Shown piece after piece: positions 5,518 through 60,017 of a stretch of 64,000 nucleotides of DNA; position 1 is the first letter of the stretch; each line of letters opens with the position of its first letter. The notes under the pieces are model-generated. The model made no database searches. It was not told the DNA's origin and saw only the letters and a program-made list of their open reading frames with translations. Where the stretch lies: assembly GCA_009885955.1 (NCBI GenBank), contig VFJS01000068.1:1-64000 (forward strand), read 5' to 3'. Source of the DNA: Spirochaetia bacterium. GTDB taxonomy: Bacteria; Spirochaetota; UBA4802; UBA5550. The position numbers and the translations under genes are program-made.

Positions 5518-6918
5518 ATGGATGACAGAAACAGTTTATTACGAAATATCCCCCAGATAGAGAAGCTTCTGAACAATGAGGAGATTGTAAAATTTATCCC
5601 GGCCCTGGGTCATGATACTGTTGTTGATGTCATACGAAAAGTAACTGAACTCTTCAGGAAAAAGATAGACCAGGGGGAAGAATTTCCCGCGGAAAAAATT
5701 ATACCTTCCATTGTGAAAAACTGCCAGAATAAAAAGACGCACAAGCTCCAGCGCGTCATAAACGGAACCGGGGTCATTATCCACACCAACCTGGGGAGGT
5801 CCCCCCTGGGGAAAAATATTTTAAAGAATCTGGCTGATGAACTTTCGGGTTACTGCAACCTGGAGTTTCACCTTCACACCGGGAAGAGGGGGAAACGGGG
5901 AGGCTTTGCCGAGGAGCTCATCTGCAGGCTTACCGGCGCTGAGGACGCGCTCATTGTAAATAACAATGCCTCTTCGGTTTTCCTTATTCTCAACCAGTTT
6001 GCCAGGGGCAGGGAGGCCGTTGTTTCAAGGGGCGAACTGATCCAGATAGGCGGCGGGTTCAGGATTCCCGACATCATGGAGCAGAGCGGGGCCATCCTTG
6101 TCGAGGTGGGCACAACAAATATTACCGAAATTGAAGATTATGCCTCTGCCATCACGCCGCTGACTTCCATGATATTCTCCGCCCACAGGTCGAATTATAA
6201 AATTGAGGGATTCACGAAAACCCCCGCCCTTGGAGAGCTTTCTGATCTCAGGAATGCATCCATCATACTGGTCCGCGACCTCGGCAGCGGCAACCTGGTA
6301 AGCGGCGCGTCCCTTCCGCAGCCCTTTGAGCCGTTAGCCGGAACAGAGCTGTCTCAGGGTGCGGACCTTGTCTGCTTCAGCGCGGACAAGCTTCTGGGAA
6401 GCTGCCAGGCCGGAATTATCATAGGCAAAAAAGTGCTCATCGAAGAGTTGAGAAAAAATCCGCTCATGAGGATGTTAAGGGTTGATAAAGTTACCTATTA
6501 CATCATCCAGGAGAATCTGATCCATTATCAGAATAACGAGATAAAAAACATCCCGCTCTGGGATATCCTGTTTCAGGATAAAAAGGATATCTCTGCGAGA
6601 ATAATAAAGATTATTAAAAAGGTGCAGGTGAAAGGCTGGAAGGAGTGCCTGAAAAAAATTGAAACTGAATGCGCCTATGGGGGAGGTTCACTCCCCGGCG
6701 CGGTTATAGGGAGCTACGGGCTCCAGATCGATATACCGGGGCTGGGCCCTGAAAAAGTGTATTCCCACTTTATTTCCCATGACGTCCCCATTGTCGGATC
6801 AATCATCAACGACAGATATGTACTCGACTTCATGGCGGTTTTTGATGATGAGGTGCCTCACGTAACCGCTGCCCTGATGAATTTGCTCAACACCCATGTC
6901 AATCAGGATTCTGCATAG
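5518..6918 (+). CDS. selA: L-seryl-tRNA(Sec) selenium transferase
   Basis: KLQRVINGTGVIIHTNLGRSPLG... VRDLGSGNL ... GADLVCFSADKLLGSCQAGIIIGKK; followed by selB. Confidence 0.96.
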   Translation: MDDRNSLLRNIPQIEKLLNNEEIVKFIPALGHDTVVDVIRKVTELFRKKIDQGEEFPAEKIIPSIVKNCQNKKTHKLQRVINGTGVIIHTNLGRSPLGKNILKNLADELSGYCNLEFHLHTGKRGKRGGFAEELICRLTGAEDALIVNNNASSVFLILNQFARGREAVVSRGELIQIGGGFRIPDIMEQSGAILVEVGTTNITEIEDYASAITPLTSMIFSAHRSNYKIEGFTKTPALGELSDLRNASIILVRDLGSGNLVSGASLPQPFEPLAGTELSQGADLVCFSADKLLGSCQAGIIIGKKVLIEELRKNPLMRMLRVDKVTYYIIQENLIHYQNNEIKNIPLWDILFQDKKDISARIIKIIKKVQVKGWKECLKKIETECAYGGGSLPGAVIGSYGLQIDIPGLGPEKVYSHFISHDVPIVGSIINDRYVLDFMAVFDDEVPHVTAALMNLLNTHVNQDSA

Positions 6919-6973
6919 TGGTTCACCGTTTTTCTGTCGCATTCCATTGTCCATGAAGGGCATCTCTGCGCCA

Positions 6974-7014
6974 TCAGGGGAACGGCATACGGTGATGAGC
7001 CGGGGTTCCCCTGA
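6974..7014. repeat. Perfect 10-bp inverted repeat in selA-selB intergenic region
   Basis: TCAGGGGAAC (6974-6983) / 21-nt loop / GTTCCCCTGA (7005-7014). Confidence 0.75.
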
Positions 7015-7088
7015 CACTCTTCCGGATTTGCTATGCCGGATGAAAGAGTAAAAAGAATTAAAAGTATCATTGATTATGGAGATCAGCA

Positions 7089-8912
7089 ATGTATATCGTA
7101 GGGACATCGGGGCATATTGATCATGGGAAAACTTCGCTCATCAAGGCACTTACCGATATAGACTGCGACAGGCTCCCGGAGGAGAAGGAGAGGGAGATGA
7201 CGATTGATATCGGGTTTGCCTCCATCAATTACCCGAAATTCGGCACCGTCAGCATCATCGATGTCCCCGGGCATGAGCGGTTCATCAGAAACATGGTTGT
7301 GGGAGCCTGGGGGATCGACCTTGCCCTTCTCCTCGTATCCATTGATGACGGATGGATGCCTCAGACCGAAGACCATTTCATGGTGCTTCAGCTCCTGAAT
7401 ATAGAAAGAATCATCGTAGTGCTGAACAAGATCGATCTGGGCGACAGGGAACTGATTGATATGGTCAGGGAGGATGTGGCGGAAAAATTTTCCGGCACAA
7501 AATACATGGGCTCATCAATTGTTGAAACATCGGCGAGAACCGGAGCCGGCATTGAAAATCTGAAAGCTGAAATTCTCGCGAATTTAAAGAAACTGAAAAA
7601 AGCCCCTGCCACGGACAAGCCCTACATGTATATCGACAGGGTCTTTGCCTCAAAGGGTTACGGGACCATCATCACCGGCACCCTGAAAAACGGGACATTT
7701 AATGATGATGACACGGTGAACATCCTCCCCGTAATGAAGAATGCGAGGATCAAAAGGATAGAGAGCCACAACAGCACCCTGACCGAGGGGAACCCGTCGC
7801 AAAGGACCGCGCTGAACCTTTCCGGCATGGCAGTGGATGAGCTCAAGCGTGGATATATAATCTGCAAAAAGAATTTTTTTTCCGAATCAAAGGATATCCT
7901 TGCAGAGATACAGCTTCTTGTGAAGGGTAAGATCATCAAGAATAATCTTGAGATTGAGCTTCTCATCGGAGCTTCAGCCATCAGGGGAAAGATCATACTT
8001 CTCAGGGATGTGAAGGAGGATGTCATGAGGTTTCCCGTGAGGCTGAAATTCAGCAGCCCCTGGCATTTTTATCCGGGCGAGCCTTTTGTCCTTACCAGTC
8101 CCGGCGGATTCAGGATCATTGGAGGAGGGAGGGTGCTTTTCCCGGATTATTCCCCGGACAGGCATAAAGTCCATGTAAAGGAACTTCTGAAAAAAATAGA
8201 TTCAGGGCCTGATTACAATATCTATGAACTTGTGCTGGATATTTATCAATGGATTAAAAAGGATGATTACCTGTCACTTTTCCCCGAGGGCAATAAGACG
8301 TTAACCGGCAAACTCGCTGAACTTGAGGAAGGAAATAAAATTCTTGTAAAAGAGGAGTTTATTTTTAATCATGATTTTTATTTCAAATCGCTTGATGTGA
8401 TAAGGGATATAGCAGATAAAAATATCGGGCTTAATCTAAAGGAAATTTCCGATCTTGCCGGCATTGATTCCATGGTCTGCAGGGTTTTGCTGGGTGACAT
8501 TATAGAGGATAACGGCATCCTGGAAAAGGACGGGCGCTACTTTGCCGGGCGGTCTATTACCGAGGACACCCTGTCCGGGCCGAACAAGAAAATTTTAAGT
8601 GATGTCCTGAAAAACGGCAAGATGGGTATTGAACTTGACAGGGCCGAAAATGATCAGATGAAAAAAGGAATCAAGGAATTGATTAAACTCGATTTTCTCG
8701 TGAGCCTGGACGGGAATATTATTTACCATAGAAGTATTTATGAAGAGATGAAGAATGATATCATGAAGGCGCTGGAAAAGAGCGACAGGCTTTCAATGCC
8801 CGATGCAAAGGAGGCGGCAGGCGTATCGAGAAAATTCATCATACCGCTGCTCAACAGGATTGAAAGAGACGGCCTCATTAAAAGAATCGGCGATTTCAGA
8901 ATGAAGGCATAA
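7089..8912 (+). CDS. selB: Selenocysteine-specific translation elongation factor
   Basis: [44 protein letters not shown]...[28 protein letters not shown]-terminal winged-helix-like region. Confidence 0.96.
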
Positions 8913-11185: not shown

Positions 11186-14100
11186 TCAGAATATTAGAGA
11201 AAAATTAAAACCCACTTCATAAGATATAATTTCCTTACTGATGGCTGAAGTTTCCCTGTTTCTGAACCTCTCAAGAACCCATGTCGTGAAAATTCCGCCC
11301 TGTATATATTTATGGAGATCGAGCATGAGCTTGTTTCTAATGAGAAATTGGTCATAGGGTTCCGGTGTGACTGTTTTTGAATAATCATACCGGTTCAGCA
11401 GCATCGAATATTCGATTGAAAAAATAGGAAAGGCTGTCAGCTTGTATATATTCGAAAACAGATTGTACATCCAGGCTACATCTGTTTCATAGAGGACGGA
11501 GAATTTATATCCGAAATCCTGCTCTTTAAAAGATGCTTTTTCAGGCATGTTCCGGATATAGATGTCATCCTCTTTTGAACGCGTTGAATCGGCAGTTGAT
11601 ATAAACTCCCTGTCCATCTTCATCCGGTAATCAAGTCCGGCATTAAAGCTGACATGCGACCTGTCCCATTTTAATGTAATCCCGGTATAGGGGGAGTGTA
11701 CATTTTCCTGAATATTTGATGTTATGAGAAGGTTGTTCGCGAAATTGTACCCGATAGTGAAATTGGCGGAATGGTGGGGGATATCGAATCTGTTTGCCCT
11801 GAAAAAGCCTGTGTTGAAAAATTTCATTAAATCAAAGTTGAATTTTGTATTGATACTCCTTGTCACAACCTGCTGCGGTATACCGTTTATATTCATCCTC
11901 TCTGCCACCTGATTGATGCTGAAAGCGGTATCCACGGAAAAAATTTTAAAGTCATGGTTCCATGCAGTAGTAAGGGTATCAATCAGTCTGAGCTGATTAT
12001 TATAGTCAGGAACATTATCTCCAGATGGAAATGTGATACGGGCATTACCGTTGCGGAATGCGTAGTCTCTGCCATTCCCGTAATTATGACGTCCCAGGAA
12101 AAATACCCCTGGATAATACCTGTTGTAGTTCATACCCACATCCATGTACCTGAACAGGGAGTGTTTAATGCCGTATTCCTCTCCAAAGGAATCGGAGTGT
12201 TCGCCTTCAAAGGGAATATCCGTTTCCAGGAAATAGAGGGACCTCATGTAGGTTATATTAAGATTTTTAAAAAGGTTCAGTTCCCTTGAACTGCTTAAGG
12301 AAACGGGGATGTTGATTTCTGATAATATAAAACTCCTGGCATCCCTGGATCTCTTGAAAATATCGGCTGCGGATTTTTCAATTTCATCGTAGTCTTTGAA
12401 CCTGTTCTCAATGTAACTGAGTTCCAATTTGTATTTCGGCGCGACTATATAGCTGTCTACGAGGCCGGCAGATATAAGGGATTTTCTGTTCCTTCCGGTA
12501 AATCTGAAGGAGTCATTATATATAAAGGGGAAGTGAAAATCACCGTTAACGTTTGTCAGGATTTCTGCGTCATTCATTCCGGTTTTTCCTGCAAGTTTTA
12601 CTATCTCCTCGGAACCCATTCCTATCTCGGGCTTAATAAAAAATATTTTGTTTGTATAATTCATGCTGAAAAGGGCATCTGATTTCTGCCTTTTCTCCTG
12701 CTCCGATGCGGGAGTCAAAGTTGAGAGGCTGCTCTTCGCAATGTCTCCGGAATCGCGGTTTATTTTTTCATTTTTAAAGGACATATCAATATAAACATTA
12801 GTCAATAATTTTCCCGAGAGGAAATTATTCAGCTCGTCCTTTACCGTAATAACAGGTGTATGAGTGCTTTTTTCCGTTTCTTTAAATATGCCGTTGCCCG
12901 AAATGTACTGGTCGGATTTATTGCTGTAGTTGTCGTGCTTATATGCGATTTTTATGCTCGGGACCCCGTTATTCAGTGACATGAAATCGGTTATAAACTG
13001 ATAGGTATCCTTTACTGTTTTCCCCCTTTTTTCAACCTGTATATTTTCGTTAAGGCTGTCTGTTGACGATTCCTCGCGGATAAAGTCCATCTGTGTATCC
13101 CAGTTCGGGAGTATTTTCATGGATGAAAGAAATTCTCTGTAATTCTCGCTGACATCGGAAAATGTTTTTCCCACGGTACTGAATTGCGCTCCATGGCCTT
13201 TCCGGATATACTTGAGGTTGATATCCGACATGATCGGTGTACCTGAAGCGGTTGTATAGAGCGGTTTTGTAATTTTTATTTCTCCCTCAATCCAGTGCGC
13301 CTTGCTCACAAGGTCCTCGGGTTCTGTAACATACATTTCATTAATCCATATCTTCCCGTTGCTCCCGGTGTTTCCGGAAATGATCAATTTAATAAAATTT
13401 ATCCTTTTCAAGTCCGGCTCTCCTGTCACGGAACTCATGTCATAATCTCCATGAGAATTAGGCTTAAGTTTCAGTTTAATCTCCCTCCATACTTTCAGAT
13501 AGTCAGCAGGTACAGTGTAGGTGATATAATCGTTTTCGGAAGATCCAAGAACAATGCCGATTTTTTCGCTTCCCGATATTTTCCGGTAATTGAACCATAC
13601 ATTCAGTGTTTTATAGAATCGTAAATCCATGGGCTTTAAAAATTTTCTTGTGACAGAAACGTAGTTCCCGGCTGTTATTGAATAATCCAGCTGCAGCGCT
13701 GATTCATTTGTTTTCGACAGTTCCTTGTCGGTTTTATCGCCGTAGAGTGAATTATACAGCTCCTTATTCTGCAATAAAAATGATTCAGCCCTGTATTCAC
13801 TGTCATTGAGACTGCTGACGATTGTCATGGAAAGGCTGGCCGGACCTGCCGGGGACCCGTTCATCTCAACGTTCCTGTATCTCATTGATACAAATTTGAT
13901 TGTATCGATATAGATTCTTCCTTTCGCGCTCACGGAATTCTGAATGCTTATCCTCACGGCCTCTACCTGCTTCAGTATAGCTATATCGCTCTGCGCCAGC
14001 GCGCTCTGGTCAATGTAGATCCTTTTCACCTTCCATGATGCCGGATCAGATGTAAGTGAAATGGAGCCAAATGAATAGCTGCTCTCAACGGTATCGAGGA

Positions 14101-16906
14101 TGCCGTTTCCGTTTATGTCTTCCGTATTTAAAATGCCGTCGCCTTTTGTCATTGAGTTGAGTCTTGGCCCTGAACCGACCCTGGTGGGAATATTTCCGTT
14201 AAATGAATATCCTGTATCCTCTGAATACCCCGCATTGGGGTTGCTGTCGATGAATCCGTTATTATTGATATCCTCGGTATCAATAATTCCATCGCCGTCG
14301 GAATCCTCGTTTATCCTTCCAACATCAATACTCATATTCACTGCCGAGGTCCCTTCATACTTATACCATATTTCAATATAATGGAGCCCGGAGAAATCCA
14401 CGGCCCCATCGGACAATTTTCTTGTTGCTATGGAGATGCTGCTGCCGGTTGAAAAGTCGAAATCCAGGGCCAGTGACCGCTGCGAGGTCTCCTTTTCAAA
14501 AGAACTGTCGACATGGCCAGTGGCCACATTGAAGGGCCCGGGCTTCACCGCGTAATCAATTTTTGCGGCATTATGAGAGAGGCCTTTCAATGTTTCCGGG
14601 CTTGACAGACTTCTGTAAAAATAATAATATAACAGGCCCCTGTCGGCCTGGGTGTATAGCGGCGGCATGGATGAGAGTATCCAGTCCTTTTCCGATAAGG
14701 ATATGTGGATAATCTCATCCGTTGATTCCATATTATCTATGAGGCCCTTGCCGAACGTATTGACTTTTTTTATGCTCCTGGCATACTCACCGTAGGCATG
14801 TATCTGAACTGGCAGGGAACTTCTTTTCGCATCGGTAAAATTATTCGTGAAGCCGGCCAGCCTTTTTCCGTCCAGGTGAAGCGACATGTCCCCTTCATAG
14901 ATAAGTGTCTGTGTCGGCGTATCGCCTATATTGGGAATTATTTTTACAGGGGCGTCCCGGCTGTACATAAGGGTGCCTCCTATGTTAAGGCTCCTGTTGA
15001 TTTCATAATCGCCCCTTAACCCTCCGATGAAAGACTGGCCAGTTGTTCCAAGGGGTAAATATTCATATTTAATTTCAATTTCTGTCTCCGGCCCAATCAG
15101 GGGGTTGCCGGAATCGTTAAAGACAAGGAGGCCCGAGGTAAGGTCAACGGTGAACAGGTTCTCTGATATATCCCTTTTGTTGACTTTGACTTTTACGCTG
15201 TTGGGGATGATATTGAAATGCTTTAATTTAAAGCTCCTTGCATCCCTGAAGTAATCGGCCAGTATTGAATAATGTGAATCGGTAAAAACACCCGCGGTCT
15301 GTTTCTCCGCGTATACGTTTGCCGATACTGCCGATGAATAATTTGTTTTCAGCAGACTTTTGAAAGGCTCTCTCAGGGTGAATTTTACAAGGCCATTTTC
15401 ATAATCAATGGCATACTTCCCGATTGACTGGATATCGCTTTTTGACAGCTCCTGGTTTTCTCTGAAGAAATGGATCTGAAAGTTGTTCTGGAGAAGTTGT
15501 CTCTCCCCGATGCTGTAAATGGATCTCATTTCATATATGTCAAGGTTCAGTTTTCCATCATTATTCCTGTCTTCCGATGCGCCGAGGGCCAGGTCTTTAT
15601 TGATGTCCTCATCCATTGAATATCCGTATTTGATAAAGACTATGAGTTTTCCGGAAAATGCCCCTCCCGGATGCGCCGTATCTCCCGGGGATATTACTCC
15701 CGGGTCTGAAGTTGCTCCGCTTTTAAGATTGTACGCGGCGAAAATTCTCGCGCTTTCCGGGACAATGCTGATAAAAGTCACAACGCCTGTGGAAAAGTTA
15801 ATTGAATAATCCTTCCCCTGTACCAATTTGACATATAGTCCTTTGTCAATGGGAAGAGTTATGGCATTGAAATTATTATGGGCATTCTGGTCATCCATAT
15901 AAAGATCAAATCCGTTCGGGTCGATGTCTACCGGATACAGGCGGTAATTCTCAGGGGAGGACGGGTATGATGACAGGGCAGTAAGCGTTGTATATCCGGA
16001 GGAACCGGTCGGGACTGATGAGGAGTTATCATACCGCCTGAATGGTTCTATCTGATAATAGTTTCTTTTTATATATTGAAATTCCGATATTTTAAATGAG
16101 CCGGCGGAAGAATTCCCTTTAAAAAGCTCAACCTCTGTTTCACCTCTGATGACGCTTCCGAAAGCCTTGATTTTAAACTTATCTTTTTTTATTGTAAGAT
16201 CAAGGCCCATTCCTTTTTGTGAATTACTGTCATACACAGCGTATTTTGAGTGATCAAATTTTATGTCAATCTGCCCCGCATTTATTTCTCTTATGACCTC
16301 GTCATCGTTAATGGCTTTATACTGCATCTGATATATATTATCCTGTCTCCTGCTGTCATGGTCAATGAACAGGGTCATCCTCTGGCCTACCGTCCCTTCA
16401 ATGTGCAGAAGAGTTATCTGTTCAGGAGCAAGGCCGTCTTTTACTACCCGGGACACCGGTTTATCCTCATCAAACTGCTTATACTTTTTATCGGTAAAAG
16501 AGGAATGGCCGTATTTGACATTGAAGATCATGGAACCGTAAGACTGTACCTGGATATCCTCACTTTCATAAATTTTCAGAAGGCCGCCTTTATCCTGAAC
16601 GGAGGTGTATTGAGGGGAAATAACATACCTGTCCCAGTCGCCCCGTGTATATTCCGGTACTATGAATAATTTCCCTGTTGATAGAAACAGTCCCGGCCTG
16701 CTTCTGCTCCCGGCAGCCTTTACCTGGACCTTATCCGGCGATATCGGATCTTTTTCTGTTTCAGGCCTGGTATCCTGGAAATTTTTTTTGATGTATTCGA
16801 GCAGCAGGGATTTATTGCCGTCATAATATGAATATGCGGCAGTTGCCAGATATGTTAAACCGGCTGCGGCCGCCAGTTTCAGATAAGGAGAGAAAAATTT
16901 TAACAT
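11186..16906 (-). CDS. SprA/Sov-like very large outer-membrane protein
   Basis: 1906 aa; LHIEGTVGQRMTLFIDHDSRRQDNIYQMQYKAINDDEVIREINAGQI, LIDNMESTDEIIHISLSEKDW, DTEDINGNGILDT calcium-binding-like repeats, GKIWINEMYVTEP, beta-strand-rich C-terminus: pattern of the SprA/Sov family. Confidence 0.7.
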   Translation of the reverse strand: MLKFFSPYLKLAAAAGLTYLATAAYSYYDGNKSLLLEYIKKNFQDTRPETEKDPISPDKVQVKAAGSRSRPGLFLSTGKLFIVPEYTRGDWDRYVISPQYTSVQDKGGLLKIYESEDIQVQSYGSMIFNVKYGHSSFTDKKYKQFDEDKPVSRVVKDGLAPEQITLLHIEGTVGQRMTLFIDHDSRRQDNIYQMQYKAINDDEVIREINAGQIDIKFDHSKYAVYDSNSQKGMGLDLTIKKDKFKIKAFGSVIRGETEVELFKGNSSAGSFKISEFQYIKRNYYQIEPFRRYDNSSSVPTGSSGYTTLTALSSYPSSPENYRLYPVDIDPNGFDLYMDDQNAHNNFNAITLPIDKGLYVKLVQGKDYSINFSTGVVTFISIVPESARIFAAYNLKSGATSDPGVISPGDTAHPGGAFSGKLIVFIKYGYSMDEDINKDLALGASEDRNNDGKLNLDIYEMRSIYSIGERQLLQNNFQIHFFRENQELSKSDIQSIGKYAIDYENGLVKFTLREPFKSLLKTNYSSAVSANVYAEKQTAGVFTDSHYSILADYFRDARSFKLKHFNIIPNSVKVKVNKRDISENLFTVDLTSGLLVFNDSGNPLIGPETEIEIKYEYLPLGTTGQSFIGGLRGDYEINRSLNIGGTLMYSRDAPVKIIPNIGDTPTQTLIYEGDMSLHLDGKRLAGFTNNFTDAKRSSLPVQIHAYGEYARSIKKVNTFGKGLIDNMESTDEIIHISLSEKDWILSSMPPLYTQADRGLLYYYFYRSLSSPETLKGLSHNAAKIDYAVKPGPFNVATGHVDSSFEKETSQRSLALDFDFSTGSSISIATRKLSDGAVDFSGLHYIEIWYKYEGTSAVNMSIDVGRINEDSDGDGIIDTEDINNNGFIDSNPNAGYSEDTGYSFNGNIPTRVGSGPRLNSMTKGDGILNTEDINGNGILDTVESSYSFGSISLTSDPASWKVKRIYIDQSALAQSDIAILKQVEAVRISIQNSVSAKGRIYIDTIKFVSMRYRNVEMNGSPAGPASLSMTIVSSLNDSEYRAESFLLQNKELYNSLYGDKTDKELSKTNESALQLDYSITAGNYVSVTRKFLKPMDLRFYKTLNVWFNYRKISGSEKIGIVLGSSENDYITYTVPADYLKVWREIKLKLKPNSHGDYDMSSVTGEPDLKRINFIKLIISGNTGSNGKIWINEMYVTEPEDLVSKAHWIEGEIKITKPLYTTASGTPIMSDINLKYIRKGHGAQFSTVGKTFSDVSENYREFLSSMKILPNWDTQMDFIREESSTDSLNENIQVEKRGKTVKDTYQFITDFMSLNNGVPSIKIAYKHDNYSNKSDQYISGNGIFKETEKSTHTPVITVKDELNNFLSGKLLTNVYIDMSFKNEKINRDSGDIAKSSLSTLTPASEQEKRQKSDALFSMNYTNKIFFIKPEIGMGSEEIVKLAGKTGMNDAEILTNVNGDFHFPFIYNDSFRFTGRNRKSLISAGLVDSYIVAPKYKLELSYIENRFKDYDEIEKSAADIFKRSRDARSFILSEINIPVSLSSSRELNLFKNLNITYMRSLYFLETDIPFEGEHSDSFGEEYGIKHSLFRYMDVGMNYNRYYPGVFFLGRHNYGNGRDYAFRNGNARITFPSGDNVPDYNNQLRLIDTLTTAWNHDFKIFSVDTAFSINQVAERMNINGIPQQVVTRSINTKFNFDLMKFFNTGFFRANRFDIPHHSANFTIGYNFANNLLITSNIQENVHSPYTGITLKWDRSHVSFNAGLDYRMKMDREFISTADSTRSKEDDIYIRNMPEKASFKEQDFGYKFSVLYETDVAWMYNLFSNIYKLTAFPIFSIEYSMLLNRYDYSKTVTPEPYDQFLIRNKLMLDLHKYIQGGIFTTWVLERFRNRETSAISKEIISYEVGFNFSLIF

Positions 16907-16997: not shown

Positions 16998-17993
16998 TTA
17001 CCAGATCCTGCTCATGTAGGGATAGGGATTTATAGGAATGCTTCCGAGCCTTATCTCATAGTGGCAGTGATTTCCGGTTGCATTTCCTGTTTGTCCCACG
17101 TATGCGATAACTTCGCCTTTCCTGACATTCTGTCCAGTCTTCACCGCAAGGGATTCACAGTGGCCATATACTGTTTCAAAGCCGTATTTATGCTGCAATC
17201 TTACGCTGAAACCGTATCCTCCGCTCCAGCCCGCAGCAAGGACAATTCCCGGTGCCGTGGCCCTGATAGGTGTCCCGTTCGATGCTGCTATGTCAATACC
17301 GGTATGAAAATCCCGTCCATGGCCGAAGGGAGATCTTCTCCATCCGAACAGCGAAGTTATGTGCCCCTGATTTGAAACGATTGATGGCGTATCCTCGATT
17401 ACCTTGCTTCTTACATCGATGAAGTTTTTTAATGCTTTAATTGTATTCGTTGAGCATATGATATCTTTTTGTATGTTTTTTATGGTGAATATCTCCTGGG
17501 GAAGGATGTCTTTTATCTTCAGCATTTCATTGAGTTCTTTTTTTTCAAATTCCTCCAGGCTCCAGATGTACTCAATCTCCTCGGTCCCTGCGGCAAGTCC
17601 ATAGAGTTCTTCAATTTCAGGCTTTAATTCTATGATAAGGTCATCAACATTTTTAGTCAACTTTTCGAATCTGAGAAGATGCGATCTGATATCGTTATAG
17701 GTTGTCAGCAGACGCTGCTCTTCTCTTTTTACAGCGGAATTTTTTATTATCGCATAGGAAGAAGTAATAAGGATAACAATGAAAAGCGCAACAAAAAAGA
17801 GTATGATAAATTTTGAGATCTGAAAGTTGAATATTTTTTTTTCATTGTGGGGGATGAACATGATTGTCATTTTTTCATGCCCGATTTCTATAAACCGCTC
17901 CCATAAAATATGTAATTTTTTCCTGTATATATAGAAATATTCGGAAAATTTTATTTTCATTCTATTCTGATATTGTTTGATATTATATTTCAT
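16998..17993 (-). CDS. M23 family metallopeptidase (LytM/murein hydrolase-like) with N-terminal TM and coiled coil
   Basis: ITSLFGWRRSPFGHGRDFHTGIDIAASNGTPIRATAPGIVLAAGWSGGYGFSVRLQHKYGFETVYGHCESLAVKTGQNVRKGEVIAYVGQTGNATGNHCHYEIR. Confidence 0.95.
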   Translation of the reverse strand: MKYNIKQYQNRMKIKFSEYFYIYRKKLHILWERFIEIGHEKMTIMFIPHNEKKIFNFQISKFIILFFVALFIVILITSSYAIIKNSAVKREEQRLLTTYNDIRSHLLRFEKLTKNVDDLIIELKPEIEELYGLAAGTEEIEYIWSLEEFEKKELNEMLKIKDILPQEIFTIKNIQKDIICSTNTIKALKNFIDVRSKVIEDTPSIVSNQGHITSLFGWRRSPFGHGRDFHTGIDIAASNGTPIRATAPGIVLAAGWSGGYGFSVRLQHKYGFETVYGHCESLAVKTGQNVRKGEVIAYVGQTGNATGNHCHYEIRLGSIPINPYPYMSRIW

Positions 17994-40795: not shown

Positions 40796-41482
40796 TTATG
40801 TAGTAACTTTTGAAATTAATTTTGCCAGTGAATAATCATCGCCGGTTGTGATTTTGAAATTTGAATAACTTCCTTCTACCATGCCGACTTCATAACCCCC
40901 GCTGATTGCTATTGAGATATCATCCGTGGCTTCTGTAATACCTTTTTTCATTGCCTTTTCATGGGCGTCCCTGATAATTCTGTAGCGGAAACCCTGGGGT
41001 GTCTGGGCATAGTAGAGGTTTTCTCTTGGCCTGATTGATTTTACGATTTCCGATTCAATTTCAGCCACGGTGTCAGTGACCCTGACATAGGTCCCTGCTG
41101 CGCCGTATTTTTTTACCGCAGCAATAATATTTTTGATGATTTTAGGGCTGATAAAGGGCCTTGCGGCATCGTGAATGATTATAAGGTCCCCGGCATTAAA
41201 ACTGACTGATGTAAGGGCATTATATACAGAACCCTGTCTTGTAGCCCCCCCTTCGACAACACGGACAATCTTGCGCCACTTGCTTCTGTCAATTTCTGAA
41301 TCAATGCTGTCGAGATATTTTCCGGGCAATACCGGTATGATGAGATCGATATCATTCAGCATCTGAAAGATCTCTATGGTTACGGTTACGATGCTTTTCC
41401 CTTTCAGGGGAAGGAACTGTTTCGGCAAGTCGCCTCCAAACCGTTCCCCCTTTCCCCCGGCAAGGATAATGGCGTAATTCAT
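40796..41482 (-). CDS. ispD: 2-C-methyl-D-erythritol 4-phosphate cytidylyltransferase (IspD-type)
   Basis: AIILAGGKGERFGGDLPKQFLPLKGK...IIIHDAARPFISP...QTPQGFRYRIIRDAHEKA...TEATDD. Confidence 0.88.
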   Translation of the reverse strand: MNYAIILAGGKGERFGGDLPKQFLPLKGKSIVTVTIEIFQMLNDIDLIIPVLPGKYLDSIDSEIDRSKWRKIVRVVEGGATRQGSVYNALTSVSFNAGDLIIIHDAARPFISPKIIKNIIAAVKKYGAAGTYVRVTDTVAEIESEIVKSIRPRENLYYAQTPQGFRYRIIRDAHEKAMKKGITEATDDISIAISGGYEVGMVEGSYSNFKITTGDDYSLAKLISKVTT

Positions 41483-42555
41483 CTTACCTCATAATTTTTT
41501 TCAATCCACTTCCGGTAATCCCCGCTGCGGACATTGTCTATCCACTGTTTGTTATCCAGGTACCACCCCACAGTAAGTTCCAGTCCTTTTTCAAAATCAA
41601 GGGAGCGTTTCCATCCGAGTCCCTGTTTAATTTTATCGCAATTGATCGCGTATCTCCTGTCATGGCCTGGCCTGTCCCTGACATAGGTAATAAGCTTTTT
41701 ATAGTAATCTTTTTCTTTTCCGGTATGCAATGCGACTTTTTCACAGAGTGTATGTAATAGCGTGATATTCTGCAGCTCATTTTCACCGCCGATATTGTAT
41801 GTTTCACCGGATTCGCCATTTTTTATGATAAGCCAGACACCGCTGTTGTGGTCATCAACGTAAATCCAGTCGCGGACATTTTTCCCGTCGCCGTATACCG
41901 GGAGAGGTTTTTCATCGAGCATATTTGATATCATTATCGGTATGAGCTTTTCAGGAAACTGGTAGGGGCCGTAATTATTAGAGCAATTGGACATGGTCAC
42001 CGGGATCCCATAGGTGTGGTTATATGCCATGACCAGGTGGTCTGATGATGCCTTTGATGCTGAATAGGGGCTCCTGGGATCGTATGGCGTATTCTCATAA
42101 AAAAATCCCTCATCGCCAAGGGATCCGTAAACTTCATCGGTGCTTACATGGTGGAATAGAACATCTTTTCTCTCCTTCCACATCTCTCTTACAGTTTCAA
42201 GAAGGGTAAAAGTCCCTATTATATTTGTCTGGATAAATTCGCCGGGCCCGTGAATTGACCTGTCAACATGGGATTCCGCCGCGAGGTGGACAATCGTGTC
42301 AATTTCAAATTTTTGTAACACTTCTTTCATTGAGGTGAAATTGCAGATGTCCATTTTTGTAAAAATATACCTTTCACCGCATTGTTCCCCGATGCCCTTC
42401 AGGTTTTCCTGATTTCCGGCATAGGTGAGCTTATCTACATTGATAATGCGGCCCTTAAAATCATTTTGCCCTAACAGGTACCGTATAAAATTTGATCCAA
42501 TGAATCCAGAACCGCCTGTTACCATTACATTTTCAAGTTTTCGCATACAATACAT
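41479..42555 (-). CDS. rfbB: dTDP-glucose 4,6-dehydratase
   Basis: MVTGGSGFIGSNFIRYLL...HLAAESHVDRSI...HVSTDEVYGSLG...SPYSASKASSDHLVMAY. Confidence 0.96.
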   Translation of the reverse strand: MYCMRKLENVMVTGGSGFIGSNFIRYLLGQNDFKGRIINVDKLTYAGNQENLKGIGEQCGERYIFTKMDICNFTSMKEVLQKFEIDTIVHLAAESHVDRSIHGPGEFIQTNIIGTFTLLETVREMWKERKDVLFHHVSTDEVYGSLGDEGFFYENTPYDPRSPYSASKASSDHLVMAYNHTYGIPVTMSNCSNNYGPYQFPEKLIPIMISNMLDEKPLPVYGDGKNVRDWIYVDDHNSGVWLIIKNGESGETYNIGGENELQNITLLHTLCEKVALHTGKEKDYYKKLITYVRDRPGHDRRYAINCDKIKQGLGWKRSLDFEKGLELTVGWYLDNKQWIDNVRSGDYRKWIEKNYEVR

Positions 42556-42574
42556 TTCCTGATATATTAAATTT

Positions 42575-43447
42575 TTATTTTTCTATATTCTTAATCGAAG
42601 ATAAAAATGAATCAAGCATTTCCTCCCAGGCCGGTACCCTGATATGAAGCTCTTTTAAAATTTTTTCCTTTGAAAGATAGGAGTTGAAGGGCCGCTTTGC
42701 CTTTGTGGGATAATCCTTTGTTTCAATGGGAATGATGTTGACATTGGTATCAATGATATGATAATTTTTTGCTTTTTCATATACAGCCATGGCAAAATCG
42801 TACCAGGTGATTTTTCCTTCGCCGGAGTAATGATAGATCCCGTATTTGTCTGAATCAGTTGTGATAATATGATACAATGCCTTTGACAAATCCCCTGTAT
42901 AGGTTGGACTGCCCCACTGGTCATTCACAACCTTTACCGTATCCTTTTCCCTGAACAGCTTCAGCATGGTAAAAACGAAATTATTTCCGTTTTTACCAAA
43001 GAGCCATGATATTCTTAATATGAAATGTTTGTGCCACTCCTCAGATAAAAGCCTGTCCCCGCTGAGCTTGCTTTTCCCATATACCGTTACCGGTTCCGTG
43101 TCATCATTTTCATTGTAGGCCCCGCTTTTTAACCCGTCGTACACATAGTCCGTTGAAAAATGGATAATTTTCGCATTGATTTCTTTTGCAACTCCCGCTA
43201 TATTCTGTACACCGGCGCTGTTCACCAGGAAGGCCCTGTCGATGTCATCTTCAGCCCTGTCGACCGCGGTATAGGCTGAGCAGTTTATTATCCATGAGAT
43301 ATTTTTGCCTGCGGCGAATTCCCTGAGCCTGCCGGAATCGGTTATATCCACATCCATATCTGATGTATAACAGCTGACTCCCCGTGTTATGAAAAGTTCC
43401 TCAATCTCACTTCCAAGCATTCCCCTGTTGCCGATGAGCCATATCAT
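42575..43447 (-). CDS. rfbD: dTDP-4-dehydrorhamnose reductase
   Basis: MIWLIGNRGMLGSEIEELF...NCSAYTAVDRAEDD...HFSTDYVYDGLKSGAYNENDDTEPVTVYGKSKLSGD. Confidence 0.95.
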   Translation of the reverse strand: MIWLIGNRGMLGSEIEELFITRGVSCYTSDMDVDITDSGRLREFAAGKNISWIINCSAYTAVDRAEDDIDRAFLVNSAGVQNIAGVAKEINAKIIHFSTDYVYDGLKSGAYNENDDTEPVTVYGKSKLSGDRLLSEEWHKHFILRISWLFGKNGNNFVFTMLKLFREKDTVKVVNDQWGSPTYTGDLSKALYHIITTDSDKYGIYHYSGEGKITWYDFAMAVYEKAKNYHIIDTNVNIIPIETKDYPTKAKRPFNSYLSKEKILKELHIRVPAWEEMLDSFLSSIKNIEK

Positions 43448-43499
43448 ACTTTTCTCATATTTTTTACCGGTGATATTTTTTTATGTTTGTGTATAGAGA

Positions 43500-44045
43500 T
43501 TAAAAAATTTCTGCATTTTTCAATAAGGGGAGTAAGTTATCTTTTGATGAAATGATTGGATTCTTCACAGGCCAATCCACTTTTATCCCGGGATCATTCC
43601 ATATAATTCCGGAATCGAGTTCGGGAGAATACTCACTGGTGCATTTATAAACAAGATGTACATCATTGCTCAGAGCAACAAATCCATGGGCAAAGCCGGC
43701 GGGTATGAATAACATTTTTCTGTTTTCTTCTGATAATATTACTGAGACCCATTTCATGAACGTTTTCGATTCCCGGCGGATATCCACCATAACATCCCAC
43801 ACCTCGCCCTTTATGACCCGTACAAGTTTTCCCTGGGCCTGCGGATTTTTCTGATAATGGAGCCCCCGTAAAACATTTTTCCTGGACAAAGAATGGTTAT
43901 CCTGGACAAATTGTCCGGGGATGCCATTCTTAATGAATTCTGATGCTTTATACGATTCAAAAAAAAATCCACGGTCGTCAAAAAAAACCTGCGGCTCAAT
44001 GATGATCAGTTCCGGAATTTCAAGTTTTTTAAAAATTGGCGGCAA
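43500..44045 (-). CDS. rfbC: dTDP-4-dehydrorhamnose 3,5-epimerase
   Basis: QVFFDDRGFFFESYKASEF...FVQDNHSLSRKNVLRGLHYQ...IPAGFAHGFVALSNDV. Confidence 0.96.
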   Translation of the reverse strand: MPPIFKKLEIPELIIIEPQVFFDDRGFFFESYKASEFIKNGIPGQFVQDNHSLSRKNVLRGLHYQKNPQAQGKLVRVIKGEVWDVMVDIRRESKTFMKWVSVILSEENRKMLFIPAGFAHGFVALSNDVHLVYKCTSEYSPELDSGIIWNDPGIKVDWPVKNPIISSKDNLLPLLKNAEIF

Positions 44046-44918
44046 TCAGTATTCTCTCCTTAAAATATCAAGTAAATATTCACCATATCCTGATTTAAGC
44101 AGGGGTCCAGCCAGTTTTTTAAGCTGTTCTGAATCAATATATTTCATCCGGTAAGCTACCTCTTCTATGCATGAAATTTTCAGTCCCTGCCTGTCTTCAA
44201 TTGTCTTAACGTAGAGTGCGGCATCTATCAGTGAGTCATGCGTACCGGTATCAAGCCATGCGAAACCACGGCCCATTATCTCCACCTTTAATTTACCCCT
44301 TCTCAGATACTCCATGTTTACATCGGTAATTTCAATCTCACCCCTGTGCGACGGCTTGATATGCGCTGCTATGTCAACTACATCATTGTCATAGAAGTAC
44401 AGGCCCACAACGGCATAATGTGATCTGGGATTTTTCGGCTTTTCTTCAATAGAAATGGCTTTTCCCTCACTGTCGAATTCAACAACCCCGTATCTTTCAG
44501 GATCATGCACATAATAACCGAATATTGTGGCGCCCGATATCTGCATTGAGGCCCTTGTCAGCATATCAGGGAGGCCGTGGCCATAGAAAATATTGTCGCC
44601 GAGTATAAGGCAGACCGAATCTTTTCCGATGAAGTCCCTTCCAACAATAAAAGCATCAGCAAGTCCGCGGGGGGTCTCCTGCACTTTATATTGAAGGGTA
44701 AGCCCCAGTTGTTTCCCATTTCCCAGAAATTTTTCAAAATTGCCCGTGTCTTCGGGAGTTGAAATGATGAGGATGTCCCTGATGCCCCCAAGCATCAGGA
44801 TTGACAGGGGATAATATATCATGGGTTTGTCATATATGGGCAGAAGCTGTTTGCAAATGGTTTGCGTTATGGGGTACAGTCTTGTTCCTGACCCGCCTGC
44901 TAAAATAATACCCTTCAT
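44046..44918 (-). CDS. rfbA: Glucose-1-phosphate thymidylyltransferase
   Basis: [57 protein letters not shown]. Confidence 0.97.
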
Positions 44919-45351
44919 ATAGATTCCTCTAAAAAATTATTTAATCCGGTGGTTTATTTTTAAAATCTATCAGCCACATGGTAATTAGTAATATACTTTC
45001 CTGTTATGTAGTTAAAACACATTAATAATTAATGAAATTATAAATCAATTTTTCAAATTAATAGTCAAATAGGCCAATATATTGTGAAAATTGTAAGTTT
45101 TGTAAATTGAACCTGAAAAATAATTATAAAGTATAAGTAGAATCTAATATTTGGTGAATCATTAATAGTCAAGAAAGTTTTTAATTAATTTCTGATGTCA
45201 ATGTGTTTATTAAATTTTCCTTGCTATTTGGTACTAAACTTTCAAATATTGTATAAAAATAATGAGTTGAACATATAATTTCATTAATAAAATTTAAAAA
45301 TTGGAATTGCAGGTAATTTTCAGGAAAAATAATTTTTTTTAAAAAGGGTTA

Positions 45352-47316
45352 TTGAGTAATAAAATTACACAGGGATATTGTATGACACTTTTATATTCCA
45401 TCATGGGAAGAAAATATTATTATCTTATTTTTGATATTATTCTAATTATTTTATCATATATCTTCTCATATATTATCAGGTTTTACCCGAATCTTGAATC
45501 CGGGTTAAATTTTTTATCAATCAAATATTTTTTAATTTTTGTCCCTTCTTTTATCATATCATTTTATTTTTTTCAGATCTACCGCATCATGTGGACTTAT
45601 TCAAACATCAGTGATGTGTACAAGCTGATGGCTGCAAATTTTATAGGATTTGTAATCTACATATCGTCATACAGCCTGTTTAAATTTGAATATTCAAGAA
45701 TGATCGTTATTCTTTCTTTTCTCTCTGTTTCAATATCCACAATATTTTATCGAATTATTCTGAGAGATTATTTTTCAAGAAAAAGGTATTATGAGACTTT
45801 TAAAGATAATTCTCATAATAAGGATAACAAAGGCCAGAAAGAGAAAAAAATTTTAATAATCGGGGCAGGGGAAGCTGGAAGAATAATTCTGGCTGAATAT
45901 AAAAAAATGGGAATCGGCCGGCAGATAACCGGATTTGTTGATGATGATAAAAGAAAAATAGGGAAAATATTCAACGGGAAGATGATTTTTGCCTCAACGG
46001 GCGATGTTAATGCGGTAATAGAAAAACAGGGTATTAATGAAGTAATTATTGCCATGCCCTCTGCTGATGCTGATATCATAAATATTATTGTCAATACCAT
46101 CAAGAAGGAAAATATTCTTATCCCGATAAAGACGGTCCCTCCAATCAGAGAACTCATCGATAAGGACCATTTAACGGTATCGCTGCGAAATGTGACCATA
46201 GCCGACCTGATTGGAAGAGAGGAATTCAGGATTGACAGCAGGGTGATTGAGGAAAAATTTTCCAGGAAAGTCATATTAATTACCGGGGCCGGGGGAAGTA
46301 TCGGCTCGGAGATATGCAAACAGCTCCTTAAATTTAAAATAAGGAAGATTATCTGTATCGGCAGGGGAGAGTTTTCTATCTATAGCCTGATCAAAACCCT
46401 GAATGGCTATTTAACATACATGGATGAAAAACCTGAACTCATTTATAAAATAATCGATATCAAAGATTTCAATCTCCTGAACAAGACATTTCAGGAACAC
46501 ATGCCCAATGTGGTTTTTCATGCGGCTGCCCACAAACATGTTCCCCTTATGGAATTCAATGAAATAGAAGCGATTCAGAACAATGTGCTCGGTACATGGA
46601 ACGTCCTTGAACTTTCCAGGAAGTATAACGTAGATGAATTTATTCTTATTTCAACTGATAAAGCTGTAAATCCGGCGAATATCATGGGAGCAACGAAGCG
46701 GCTTGGAGAACTCATCACAGGTTATTTCAGCAAGTATCATGGATTAAAAACAGCAATAGTGAGATTTGGAAATGTTCTCGGCAGCAGGGGTTCCGTAATT
46801 CCGCTTTTCAGGGAGCAGATAGAAAGCGGAGGCCCCGTGACTATTACTCATCCTGATATTACAAGGTTTTTCATGAGCATTCCCGAGGCTTCCCTCCTGG
46901 TAATCAATGCCGCTGCCTATTCCAGGGGAGGGGATATCTTTATTCTTGATATGGGCAAACAGTTTAAGGTTATTGATATCGCGGTAAGGCTTATAGAACT
47001 CTACGGGCTGCGGCCCAATGAGGATATTGAGATTGTATACACCGGGTTAAGGCCCGGTGAAAAAATGTTTGAAGAATTGTATTATAACATCGATTCTTTA
47101 TCTAAAACGGAAAATTCCAAGATTTTCATGCTTACTTCAGACAGTGTGTATCTGGAAAAGGATGATGTTGAAAAATTTATTAATGAAGAGATACATACTA
47201 TCATGAACCTTAATCAGCTGCAGATAAGAAAAATGATTGTGCGGTTCATCCCGGGTTATACCTATGATGAAATAACCTGTAATGATATTGATTCATGCTC
47301 ACGGCTGGTTAATTAA
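45352..47316 (+). CDS. Membrane-bound nucleotide-sugar 4,6-dehydratase/epimerase (CapD/WbpM-like)
   Basis: N-terminal TM helices, ILIIGAGEAGRIILAEY, then VILITGAGGSIGSEICKQLLKF...HAAAHKHVPLMEFNEIEAIQNNVLGT. Confidence 0.93.
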   Translation: MSNKITQGYCMTLLYSIMGRKYYYLIFDIILIILSYIFSYIIRFYPNLESGLNFLSIKYFLIFVPSFIISFYFFQIYRIMWTYSNISDVYKLMAANFIGFVIYISSYSLFKFEYSRMIVILSFLSVSISTIFYRIILRDYFSRKRYYETFKDNSHNKDNKGQKEKKILIIGAGEAGRIILAEYKKMGIGRQITGFVDDDKRKIGKIFNGKMIFASTGDVNAVIEKQGINEVIIAMPSADADIINIIVNTIKKENILIPIKTVPPIRELIDKDHLTVSLRNVTIADLIGREEFRIDSRVIEEKFSRKVILITGAGGSIGSEICKQLLKFKIRKIICIGRGEFSIYSLIKTLNGYLTYMDEKPELIYKIIDIKDFNLLNKTFQEHMPNVVFHAAAHKHVPLMEFNEIEAIQNNVLGTWNVLELSRKYNVDEFILISTDKAVNPANIMGATKRLGELITGYFSKYHGLKTAIVRFGNVLGSRGSVIPLFREQIESGGPVTITHPDITRFFMSIPEASLLVINAAAYSRGGDIFILDMGKQFKVIDIAVRLIELYGLRPNEDIEIVYTGLRPGEKMFEELYYNIDSLSKTENSKIFMLTSDSVYLEKDDVEKFINEEIHTIMNLNQLQIRKMIVRFIPGYTYDEITCNDIDSCSRLVN

Positions 47317-47355
47317 AATCTTCACCTGTCGATACCGAAAACCCGGCAGTAAAAT

Positions 47356-48408
47356 TTATTTTTTAATTTTTTTTTCTATTTCAGGATAGAGCTCCATCAT
47401 CTTATGTTTTTCAAATAAAAAGAGTATGCCGTCAGTTACAGGAAATTTTCTCCTGCATGCCGGGCATGACAGAAGATTTTTTTCTTTTTTAAGGGCGGTT
47501 TCGATTCCCTTCCGGGGCCTGCATTCCGGGCAGATTAGCGCCTCCTGTATTGCTTTAATGCCCCTGGTATTCTCTCCGTCCTTGCCGCAAGTGCCGCTGA
47601 TGCTCCCGCCCAGAAGATACGAGGCGAAATATTTAGCATATGATTTTGGATGGTACAGCTCTGAATTAATTTTCAGTGACAGGAGGTCTATATTTCTTCT
47701 GCTGAACATTTCAAGGGATTTTCTCCAATCATGAAGCGATATGTCATGATTTTCTATTATGTTAAAATCAGTTTCATTGCATAATTTTTCTGCAAAAAAT
47801 TTTTCCATTATTTTTTTTATGATATTTTTTTTCTTCAGTGATTTGTTTGAATACATTTTGTCGCTTTTATACAGATTAAAATGGAGTACCTGCCTGTACG
47901 GCTCCTCCCCGATGAAAAAATTGCCTCCCGGTGAAAGTACCCGGTAAATTTCCTCTATAATGGGATCCGGTTCCGGGAAATGGTGCAGGGTTTGATAGGT
48001 ATAAATGAAAGGAACAGAACCGGTTCTGAACGGAAGATTATATGCATCACAGCAGATTCTCATGGGGATTTTTTTCTTTCCAAAGACTTTTTTGTAATGG
48101 TCTCCTGTTTTAAGGATATGAAATGCCAGGTCGGCTCCTGCGCCGCTCTCCCCCATATCATTTTCCATGATCATGGCACGCTGGCATCTCTCCGCTCCTA
48201 TCTCCAGGTAGGGGGAAAGGGGGATACCATTTTTTTTAAGCAGCTTCATATCGGAGAGGGTCTCATCCATCCTGTTCTTCAGAATCCCGTTTATCCCCTC
48301 TGCGTCATATTCATCTTTAATGGAGTCTTTGCCTTCAATCTGTTTTTCAATAAGTCTTTCCTTGAATTTTATTTCACCAATCTGGTTGTCAATTGTCTGT
48401 TTTTTCAT
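47356..48408 (-). CDS. SAM-dependent methyltransferase with C-terminal Trm112-like zinc-binding region
   Basis: PFIYTYQTLHHFPEPDPIIEEIYRVLSPGGNFFIGEEP; CPACRRKFPVTDGILFLF. Confidence 0.82.
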   Translation of the reverse strand: MKKQTIDNQIGEIKFKERLIEKQIEGKDSIKDEYDAEGINGILKNRMDETLSDMKLLKKNGIPLSPYLEIGAERCQRAMIMENDMGESGAGADLAFHILKTGDHYKKVFGKKKIPMRICCDAYNLPFRTGSVPFIYTYQTLHHFPEPDPIIEEIYRVLSPGGNFFIGEEPYRQVLHFNLYKSDKMYSNKSLKKKNIIKKIMEKFFAEKLCNETDFNIIENHDISLHDWRKSLEMFSRRNIDLLSLKINSELYHPKSYAKYFASYLLGGSISGTCGKDGENTRGIKAIQEALICPECRPRKGIETALKKEKNLLSCPACRRKFPVTDGILFLFEKHKMMELYPEIEKKIKK

Positions 48409-48854
48409 CGGCCGCTCCGGTTATCATACAAATTCATAGTATATATATTTTAAGGCATCACTAAACATTCATATTCTTTTCAATGTTTGCGCCTTTAAGG
48501 GAACCGCATATTTTAAATATTTAATGTTCACATAAAAATAGATTTACAAACAGGTTGAAAATTACAACTCTTTTTTCATATTTTTCAAGGCGGTAATTTG
48601 AAATCAATATTCTCGTGAAAAAGTCAATATAATGTATTTGTAATAATTATTCGGTGAAATTGTAAGAAATAAAATTGAGATTTATCCAGCCGGTATTTAG
48701 AGTTGGTTAATAATTATTATAGTATACGGGCTTTTCATAAATTATGCATGAAAATATATCTTGTAAAATTCCCATTTGTTTTAAAATGATAAATTATTAT
48801 CAGACATATAATTTATTCAATTTATTATGATAGATGATGGTGAAGGAGATTAAA

Positions 48855-49718
48855 ATGGACAGGAAATGCATAGCCTGTGGAGCGCTGTTTAAACCGGTAA
48901 GAACCATCACTGCCAGGGATTATTCGTCAGGGAATACAATTTATCCGGTAGATTTCTGTCCGTGCGGCCTTGGGGTGACAAGAATTAATGATCAGAGAGA
49001 ATCGGATGCTGTAAATAAAAGTTCCTATGACAATTTAACAGGCAGGATTGATATATACTTTAACAGGTTGAAAAAACATTTTTATAAACGGCACTCTGAG
49101 ATATTGGGGAATATCAGAAAATTTTCTCCCGGCGGGAAGGCACTTCTAGAAGTTGGTTCCAACCTCGGGTATACGGCACATATGGCAGTTGAGAAGGGCT
49201 ATGATGTAGTCGCATGTGAACTGAATGACAGGTGCAGAAATTTTTCAGAGCTGGTATTCGGTCTTACCGTGTCAAAAGACCTGTACAAAGTGAAAAACAG
49301 ATTTGACATTGTCACCCTGAACGATGTACTGGAACATTTTCCCGAACCAGTCAGGGCCATACGGAAAATACATACACTCCTGGTTCATGATGGCATTGTC
49401 TTTATACAGCTTCCCAACTGGGAGAGCAGCGTCGCAGAACGGCATGGCGGTGAGTGGCACTGGTACAATCCTCCCGACCACCTGTTTCATTTTAACATCA
49501 ATTCTATGAAAAAATTTCTTGCGGGGAACGGATTCTCACTTCTCTGGATGAGGACAGTTGATATGGCCGAAGACCTGCCGCTTTTCAGGCTGTTTCCCGG
49601 GAGATTGAAGGGCAGGATATTTCAGGTGATCAACTATTTTTTTTCTGTGGGCCTCATTGAAAATAAAAAGGAGAGGGGCGGCTTAATCCAGCTGATTGCA
49701 AAAAAAAATGATGATTAA
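48855..49718 (+). CDS. SAM-dependent methyltransferase with N-terminal zinc-ribbon
   Basis: MDRKCIACGALFKPV...LLEVGSNLGYTAHMAVEKGYDVVACELN...LNDVLEHFPEPVRAIRKIHTLL; RBS GGAGAT. Confidence 0.88.
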   Translation: MDRKCIACGALFKPVRTITARDYSSGNTIYPVDFCPCGLGVTRINDQRESDAVNKSSYDNLTGRIDIYFNRLKKHFYKRHSEILGNIRKFSPGGKALLEVGSNLGYTAHMAVEKGYDVVACELNDRCRNFSELVFGLTVSKDLYKVKNRFDIVTLNDVLEHFPEPVRAIRKIHTLLVHDGIVFIQLPNWESSVAERHGGEWHWYNPPDHLFHFNINSMKKFLAGNGFSLLWMRTVDMAEDLPLFRLFPGRLKGRIFQVINYFFSVGLIENKKERGGLIQLIAKKNDD

Positions 49719-49743
49719 CAGTTCACGGAAATTTTGAAGAGAT

Positions 49744-50949: not shown

Positions 50950-50965
50950 GACGAGGTATGATAAC

Positions 50966-52615: not shown

Positions 52616-52685
52616 AATTCAGCTTTTGTTAATTATTGATTTGAATTGTGTTCCCTCAAATATAAAAAATCATCGGCCGTTGTCT

Positions 52686-53783: not shown

Positions 53784-53802
53784 GGAGATTACCGGCCAGC
53801 CG

Positions 53803-58949: not shown

Positions 58950-60017
58950 ATGAAAGATTCCTGCGTTACCGGCGGCAAAAATACATTAAGGCTTACCGAA
59001 TCTGTATCGGGCTCGGGGTGAGCATCTAAACTCGGTCCGGCGGACCTTGTCAGGGTAATAAAAAATCTTCAGGTCACATACGACAAAAATGTCCTTGTAG
59101 GATTCGACAGGAGCGACGATGCCGGGGTGTATAAAATATCCGATACCCTTGCCCTTGTTCAGACTGTGGATTTTTTTACTCCTATCGTTGATGATCCCTT
59201 CACCTTCGGGCAGATTGCAGCTGCAAACGCCCTCTCGGACATCTATGCCATGGGGGGCGCCCCGCTCACTGCCATGAACATTGCCGCGTTCCCGGTAAAA
59301 AAATTTCCGCTGGAAGTGCTGACCGAAATACTCAGGGGGGGGCTGGACATTCTTGAATCTGCCGGTGTTCAGCTTCTCGGAGGGCATACCATTGAGGACA
59401 ATGAGCTCAAATACGGGCTCGCGGTAACAGGCACAGTCCATCCCGCAAGGATAGTAAAAAATTCAGGGATAATGGATGGAGATCTGCTGATATTGACAAA
59501 GAGCCTGGGAACGGGAATAATAGGGACAGCCATAAAAGCAGATATGGCCGGCGCCCGGGAGATTTCGGCATCCATTAAAAGCATGACTTCACTGAATAAA
59601 AGGGGAGGGGAGATCATGCTTCTGCATGGTGTCCATGCCTGCACAGATGTGTCGGGCTACGGGCTCTCTGGCCATTTACTGGAGATGGTGGGGGATGAAA
59701 ATATTCAGGTTATCATTGAAGCATCCTCGCTCCCGGTACTTCCTGGAGTCAGGGAGTATGCAGAGACTGGGCTGATCCCTGCCGGGCTGTACAGGAACAG
59801 GGACTTTGCTGGTGAAAGATGCAGAATCGGGCAATCAGTGGTACAGTACCTGGCTGATATATTTTTTGATCCGCAGACTTCAGGCGGGCTTCTTTTTTCC
59901 ATGGCAGAAGGTGATGCTGAAAAGGCATTAAAATCTCTTCATTCCGAAGGGATGGCAGATGCGCGGATAATCGGCAGGGTAAGGACTGGAAATGGTTCCG
60001 GGATTAATATTATTTAG
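58950..60017 (+). CDS. selD: Selenide, water dikinase, Sec-containing (355 aa; UGA-encoded Sec at residue 24)
   Basis: ATG 58950, in-frame TGA 59019-59021: [103 protein letters not shown]...; ORF track starts at an internal GTG (59127). selA and selB are in the same window. Confidence 0.92.
59034..59046 (+). promoter_or_regulatory. Putative bacterial SECIS hairpin within selD
   Basis: GGTCC-GGC-GGACC: perfect 5-bp stem with G-starting 3-nt loop, loop 18-20 nt after the UGA. Confidence 0.65.

Follow-up and report, generated by a model that had tools for sequence, protein, structure and literature searches.

A SprA-family translocon homologue outside the FCB superphylum, in spirochaetes without a detected PorU sortase

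Introduction

The Type 9 secretion system (T9SS) has been reported as restricted to Bacteroidetes (PMC4793230) and, in 2024, as possibly occurring in several FCB phyla, with T9SS genes absent from all other phyla (PMC11285876). CTD proteins without a known secretion pathway have been described from Poribacteria (PMC3909097). In F. johnsoniae the CTD binds the extracellular loops of its carrier inside the SprA pore, and the release of carrier and cargo is the energy-requiring step, which is powered through GldLM (PMC10994853). We found no description of SprA in Spirochaetota or Elusimicrobiota in the open-access literature that was searched.

The stretch of DNA analysed here (the window; 64,000 nucleotides of contig VFJS01000068.1, from a Spirochaetia bacterium) carries a very large gene whose product had been likened in a first-pass annotation to SprA/Sov, apparently outside Bacteroidota, and which was thought to be perhaps a stand-alone export channel. 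We find that a SprA-family translocon really does occur beyond the FCB superphylum, and does so in the absence of a sortase. We hypothesise that it is a vertically inherited outer-membrane translocon which, in the window's order, belongs to a reduced system without a sortase, with a CTD-only protein as its client and a barrel as the carrier; we consider this account probable, although with considerable room for doubt.

Results

The sprA-like gene lies on the minus strand at exactly the positions first assigned to it (11186..16906) and is a single uninterrupted ORF of 1906 aa, running from a signal peptide to a C-terminal Phe that is invariant within the window's order. The signal peptide, probably of the Sec type, was read from a hydrophobic stretch at approximately residues 1-27 (16826..16906). 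Every motif quoted in the first-pass annotation is found in this ORF and is kept across 24 orthologues, which are 41-49% identical to the window protein. Specifically, from the N- to the C-terminus and all on the minus strand, these are; a GTVGQR...DDEVIREINAGQI block (residues 171-213; 16268..16396), which is near-invariant in the 24 orthologues and aligned to the matching block of SprA 6h3i; GKGLIDNMEST (residues 719-729; 14720..14752), the counterpart of the SprA motif IDDMEGS / VDDFEGS; two calcium-loop-like ED-DxNxNG-xLD repeats (residues 867-887 and 922-938; 14093..14308), whose acidic positions are invariant and which wide alignments show to be kept in SprA-like proteins across phyla; and WINEMYVTEP (residues 1187-1196; 13319..13348), in which W1187 is invariant in the orthologue alignment. 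The remainder, from approximately residue 1215 to 1906 (11189..13264, minus strand), is predicted to form the C-terminal part of a barrel from long antiparallel strands, as judged from the AlphaFold2 model and Foldseek. Directly upstream of sprA is a gene for an M23-family peptidase (16998..17993, minus strand; PF01551, E=6e-33), an orthologue of which adjoins sprA in 11 loci, including that of G058, a SprA-bearing genome outside the order.

The SprA model NCBIfam TIGR04189 matched the window protein at E=1.1e-27 with 95.8 bits, which misses the equivalog cut-off of 200, and it matched 19 of the 24 orthologues, the best at 7.8e-49. Elsewhere the same model gave 1015 and 462 bits for two FCB homologues (L105 and L063), 149 bits for an Elusimicrobiota homologue and 105 bits for that of the Spirochaetota genome G056. 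When a profile of 64 proteins headed by the window protein was used, F. johnsoniae SprA in the PDB was matched at E=3.7e-186 over profile positions 4-1212, but as this profile contains FCB members the match is a transitive link; the wider profile was required, a PDB search with the order-only SprA profile having given no match. The direct test of homology is provided by hhalign, where a profile built from spirochaete proteins only was aligned with the FCB SprA profile over 1023 columns with a probability of 100 (E=1.2e-51). The SprA_N domain (PF14349) was found in L105 and L063, but not in the window protein or its genome, nor in Elusimicrobiota L049 or G056, and since the region concerned does align to SprA, this missed match is probably a matter of profile divergence.

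Predicted structure gives the same picture. AlphaFold2 was run on two overlapping parts of the protein, residues 86-1285 (pLDDT 82.9, pTM 0.61) and residues 985-1906 (pLDDT 89.2, pTM 0.69), and both models were compared by Foldseek with 350,542 PDB chains. For the first part the four SprA chains ranked 1-4 (E=8e-48 to 2.2e-32), the next hit being an unrelated protein at 1.1e-5, and for the second part the four SprA chains again ranked 1-4 (E=9e-17 to 9e-13), with the next hit at 8.9e-5. Query-normalised TM scores to the SprA chains were 0.41-0.50 across both halves. Profile, profile-profile and fold comparisons thus bear out the likeness to SprA/Sov, and it is near certain that the window protein is a homologue of this family. 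Compared with SprA/Sov of F. johnsoniae and P. gingivalis (TIGR04189; PDB 6h3i, 6h3j, 8gl6, 8gl8), it is of the same length class, shows co-linear homology over residues 123-1215 and is alike in both predicted halves and the C-terminal barrel. However, it is shorter than the F. johnsoniae protein (1906 versus 2403 aa), and differs in scoring about 95 bits where the equivalog cut-off is 200, in the undetected PF14349, in the calcium-loop-like repeats and in having a host outside the FCB superphylum.

The window genome (G000) is 4.77 Mb in 117 contigs and 98.35% complete. Its placement agrees with the original impression of a sprA gene outside Bacteroidota, as a member of the same family (G009, whose sprA shares its contig coordinates with that of L033, Spirochaetes bacterium ADurb.Bin218) is assigned by NCBI to Spirochaetota. 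Among relatives from the window's family and order, 43 of 45 carry sprA, and the two that do not (G012 and G029) belong to genera whose other members are sprA-positive. In a tree of 70 SprA homologues (FastTree, midpoint rooted, with some weak inner supports), Spirochaetota from six lineages, Elusimicrobiota with Firestonebacteria, and the FCB phyla form separate groups, a pattern more readily explained by long-standing vertical inheritance than by acquisition from Bacteroidota. These bins do include a few other contigs that look like contaminants from Bacteroidota (G018:C38, G034:C118 and G004:C307), and one might ask whether sprA itself is a contaminant or a recent acquisition from Bacteroidota. 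However, its presence across the order with synteny kept, the clade of its own that Spirochaetota SprA occupies in the tree, and a GC content of 0.43 for the gene against 0.40 for the window make this extremely improbable, and we have set it aside. There are two irregular records among the homologues. A MAG named Bacteroidetes bacterium ADurb.Bin145 (L040) has a sprA of the spirochaete type (51% identity), flanked by genes that are likewise spirochaete-type, and is either mislabelled or a mixed bin; and in G048:C1 the SprA homologue is in two parts 1.1 Mb apart (L208 and L209) beside masked stretches, perhaps owing to a scaffolding error.

It had also been remarked that no CTD-bearing cargo or other Por genes were visible, a remark that is correct for the 64-kb window taken alone but does not extend to the genome. 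Contig C26 of G000 encodes a PorV/PorQ-family protein at 124-125 bits, above the cut-off of 90 (NF033709), and a two-gene unit located between tlyA and folP-cdaA-ybbR-pdxJ (gene names as read from the sequence) encodes first a 125-aa protein, which is no more than a signal peptide with a lone CTD-like domain, and then a 349-aa PorV/FadL-like barrel. With these genes found elsewhere in the genome, the idea of a stand-alone channel was rejected as unsupported. The 125-aa protein scored 25.9 with TIGR04183 (cut-off 23), 27.4 with FlgD_ig (PF13860; cut-off 27) and 24.5 with Por_Secre_tail, just under the cut-off of 27, which its counterpart in G025 passes at 27.6. Its strongest NCBIfam matches are to the CTDs of PorU and PorZ, and an alignment of such CTD-like proteins found the PorZ CTD as its best PDB match (E=1.2e-6), ahead of FlgD (0.007). 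Type A CTDs of PorZ and PorU (NF052228, NF033707, TIGR04183; PDB 5m11) are therefore its closest sequences, although unlike them it has no cargo or catalytic domain ahead of the CTD, which stands alone after the signal peptide. The likeness to FlgD lies just above the Pfam cut-off, whereas the flagellar hook-cap context of FlgD is lacking.

The profile of the PorV-like barrel matched a single PDB protein, the PorV of the SprA complex, and did so weakly (E=0.0063). Against T9SS carriers of the PorV/PorQ type (NF033709, NF033711), the C26 protein is the one above cut-off, and the pair resembles F. johnsoniae Type B cargo with PorP/SprF in having the carrier gene directly 3' of its own CTD gene (PMC12618676). 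The dedicated barrel of about 345 aa is unlike such carriers in scoring 32.5 bits and in being fused to the CTD in genus g4, where three genomes read directly have signal peptide, CTD and barrel in one ORF of 431-442 aa. The CTD gene of the pair is present in 37 of 46 genomes of the window's order; in G028 it has decayed while the barrel gene is intact.

No CTD-tagged cargo longer than 125 aa was recognised in the window genome, nor a Type B CTD (TIGR04131) above cut-off, so that the search for CTD proteins yielded this one small protein and nothing larger. Larger CTD cargos met with in the order are on the three suspect contigs named above, which are short, carry typical Bacteroidota CTD proteins and probably represent contamination. 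Outside the order, two SprA-bearing Spirochaetota are much richer, with 43 TIGR04183 matches in G056 and 20 in G047, including a glycoamylase-domain protein and FG-GAP proteins. Within each of these two genomes a CTD gene is followed 11 times by a PorV-family gene on the same strand (22 in total), where the chance means are 0.14 for G056 and 0.04 for G047 and 11 was never reached in 4000 random placements. This order of cargo then carrier resembles that of F. johnsoniae Type B substrates with SprF-like carriers (PMC12618676). SprA-negative Spirochaetota (G052, G054 and G057) also have CTD/FadL-like pairs or lone CTD lipoproteins, with an apparent lipobox that is not conserved in the proteins of the order, although the cases are few. 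In G052, one cluster (L204:2988-7001) holds lptF-lptG, a CTD-like lipoprotein and a FadL/PorV-like barrel.

Many genomes of the window's order encode proteins of about 880 aa (for example L151:7355-10039, L150:6920-9562 and L148:7071-9710) in which a PorV/FadL-like N-terminus is followed by several FlgD_ig/CHU_C repeats and, at the C-terminus, an OmpA domain. We considered the FlgD_ig/CHU_C domains of these and of a 1666-aa protein as sorting tails and rejected them, because they are internal repeats ahead of the OmpA domain and not C-terminal.

PorU (Peptidase_C25) was found in none of 11 Spirochaetota and neither of two Elusimicrobia, yet the same search detected it in 19 of 20 FCB genomes. 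GldM (TIGR03517, PF12081) was above cut-off in no genome, FCB included, and this search accordingly has no positive control.

Discussion

Alongside the observed homology, predicted fold, gene content, synteny and absence of PorU, we infer that the spirochaete SprA homologue would translocate protein, with the CTD-only protein and the PorV-like barrel as its client and carrier. In such a mechanism, the pore of the giant barrel would admit a Sec-exported protein with an Ig-like CTD, this CTD would dock at the side opening of the barrel, where it meets the loops of a PorV-type carrier, and cargo and carrier would exit together. The parts seen in the spirochaetes fit the docking step. G047 and G056 may have a full-looking version of the system, with dozens of CTD cargos, many of them encoded with their own PorV downstream, whereas in the window's order it would be reduced to one PorV/PorQ-like protein and one dedicated pair, the 'cargo' of which amounts to a signal peptide plus CTD. 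In some species the pair has become a single polypeptide. As PorU is absent from the Spirochaetota searched, anchoring would have to differ from that of Bacteroidota, and the energy supply may differ too, given that no GldM-type motor was found in a search without a positive control. With likely partners present but the sortase missing, the channel appears to predate the other components of the known machinery. A tentative extension, which we think has perhaps one chance in three, is that the sortase and motor were later additions in the FCB/Bacteroidota lines and that all that is left of the system in the window's order is a client made up of a CTD alone, which is bound to its own carrier or fused with it.

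What the channel of the window's order carries is uncertain, because CTD/FadL pairs occur without SprA too; the CTD-only protein could be the remaining client, a PorZ-like fixed partner of the barrel or part of an unrelated FadL-type transporter. On the last of these readings, SprA would be a translocon for clients with an unrecognised sorting signal, and the pair would be a FadL-type transporter with a FlgD-Ig-like periplasmic domain. The pair beside lptF-lptG in G052 and the CTD lipoproteins of G054 and G057 show that such proteins do not necessarily rely on SprA. In the g4 fusion the CTD precedes the barrel, whose N-terminus would be expected to face the periplasm, whereas in T9SS it is the extracellular loops of PorV to which CTDs bind. 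Both this arrangement and the SprA-negative pairs favour the transporter, to which may be added that the G000 protein passes the cut-off of no Pfam model other than FlgD_ig and that the CTD gene of G028 has decayed. However, the profile of these small CTDs prefers PorZ and PorU to FlgD, the apparent lipobox separates the few SprA-negative forms from those of the order, and the real CTD cargos of G047 and G056 share the cargo-then-carrier order, so that we regard the unrelated-transporter reading as rather unlikely, if still to be taken seriously.

A channel for outer-membrane biogenesis, for example in the handling of lipid or LPS, and not for protein secretion, is also conceivable, given that sprA is retained order-wide with few recognisable clients and that LptF/LptG genes stand divergently beside sprA in 24 loci of Elusimicrobiota, Latescibacterota, Fermentibacterota, Caldithrix and others (L048, L049, L070 and L094 among them; PF03739 was confirmed for four proteins). 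In the window's order, however, the neighbour is the M23 peptidase and there is no Lpt gene beside sprA, the predicted fold matches SprA far better than LptD, and CTD cargos abound in the SprA-bearing G047 and G056; we consider this alternative improbable.

The view that T9SS genes are confined to FCB phyla contrasts with the separate clades formed by SprA homologues of Spirochaetota and Elusimicrobiota, and with the Spirochaetota tested, which lack PorU but have CTD proteins and carriers of the PorV type. Should the channel work as a translocon, the translocation step could be uncoupled from the sortase and possibly also from the motor, so that it would become testable how Type 9 secretion arose and which parts it minimally needs. 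These data also suggest a possible route of surface-protein export in uncultured spirochaetes.

Other features of the window

The window contains no tRNA gene. SelA- and SelB-like genes and a SelD-like gene are located at 5518-8912 and about 58965-60017, and an in-frame TGA in the SelD-like gene (SGSGUASK) suggests a selenocysteine-containing SelD. From the sequence, dTDP-rhamnose genes and glycosyltransferases at 40796-57315 probably form a surface polysaccharide cluster. At 60379-63708 is the gene of a 1109-aa protein with many imperfect GIVELAEDGEESPEVAVQGNDRRL-type repeats, tail-fibre-like by eye, within which lies a tandem repeat at 62168-62373.
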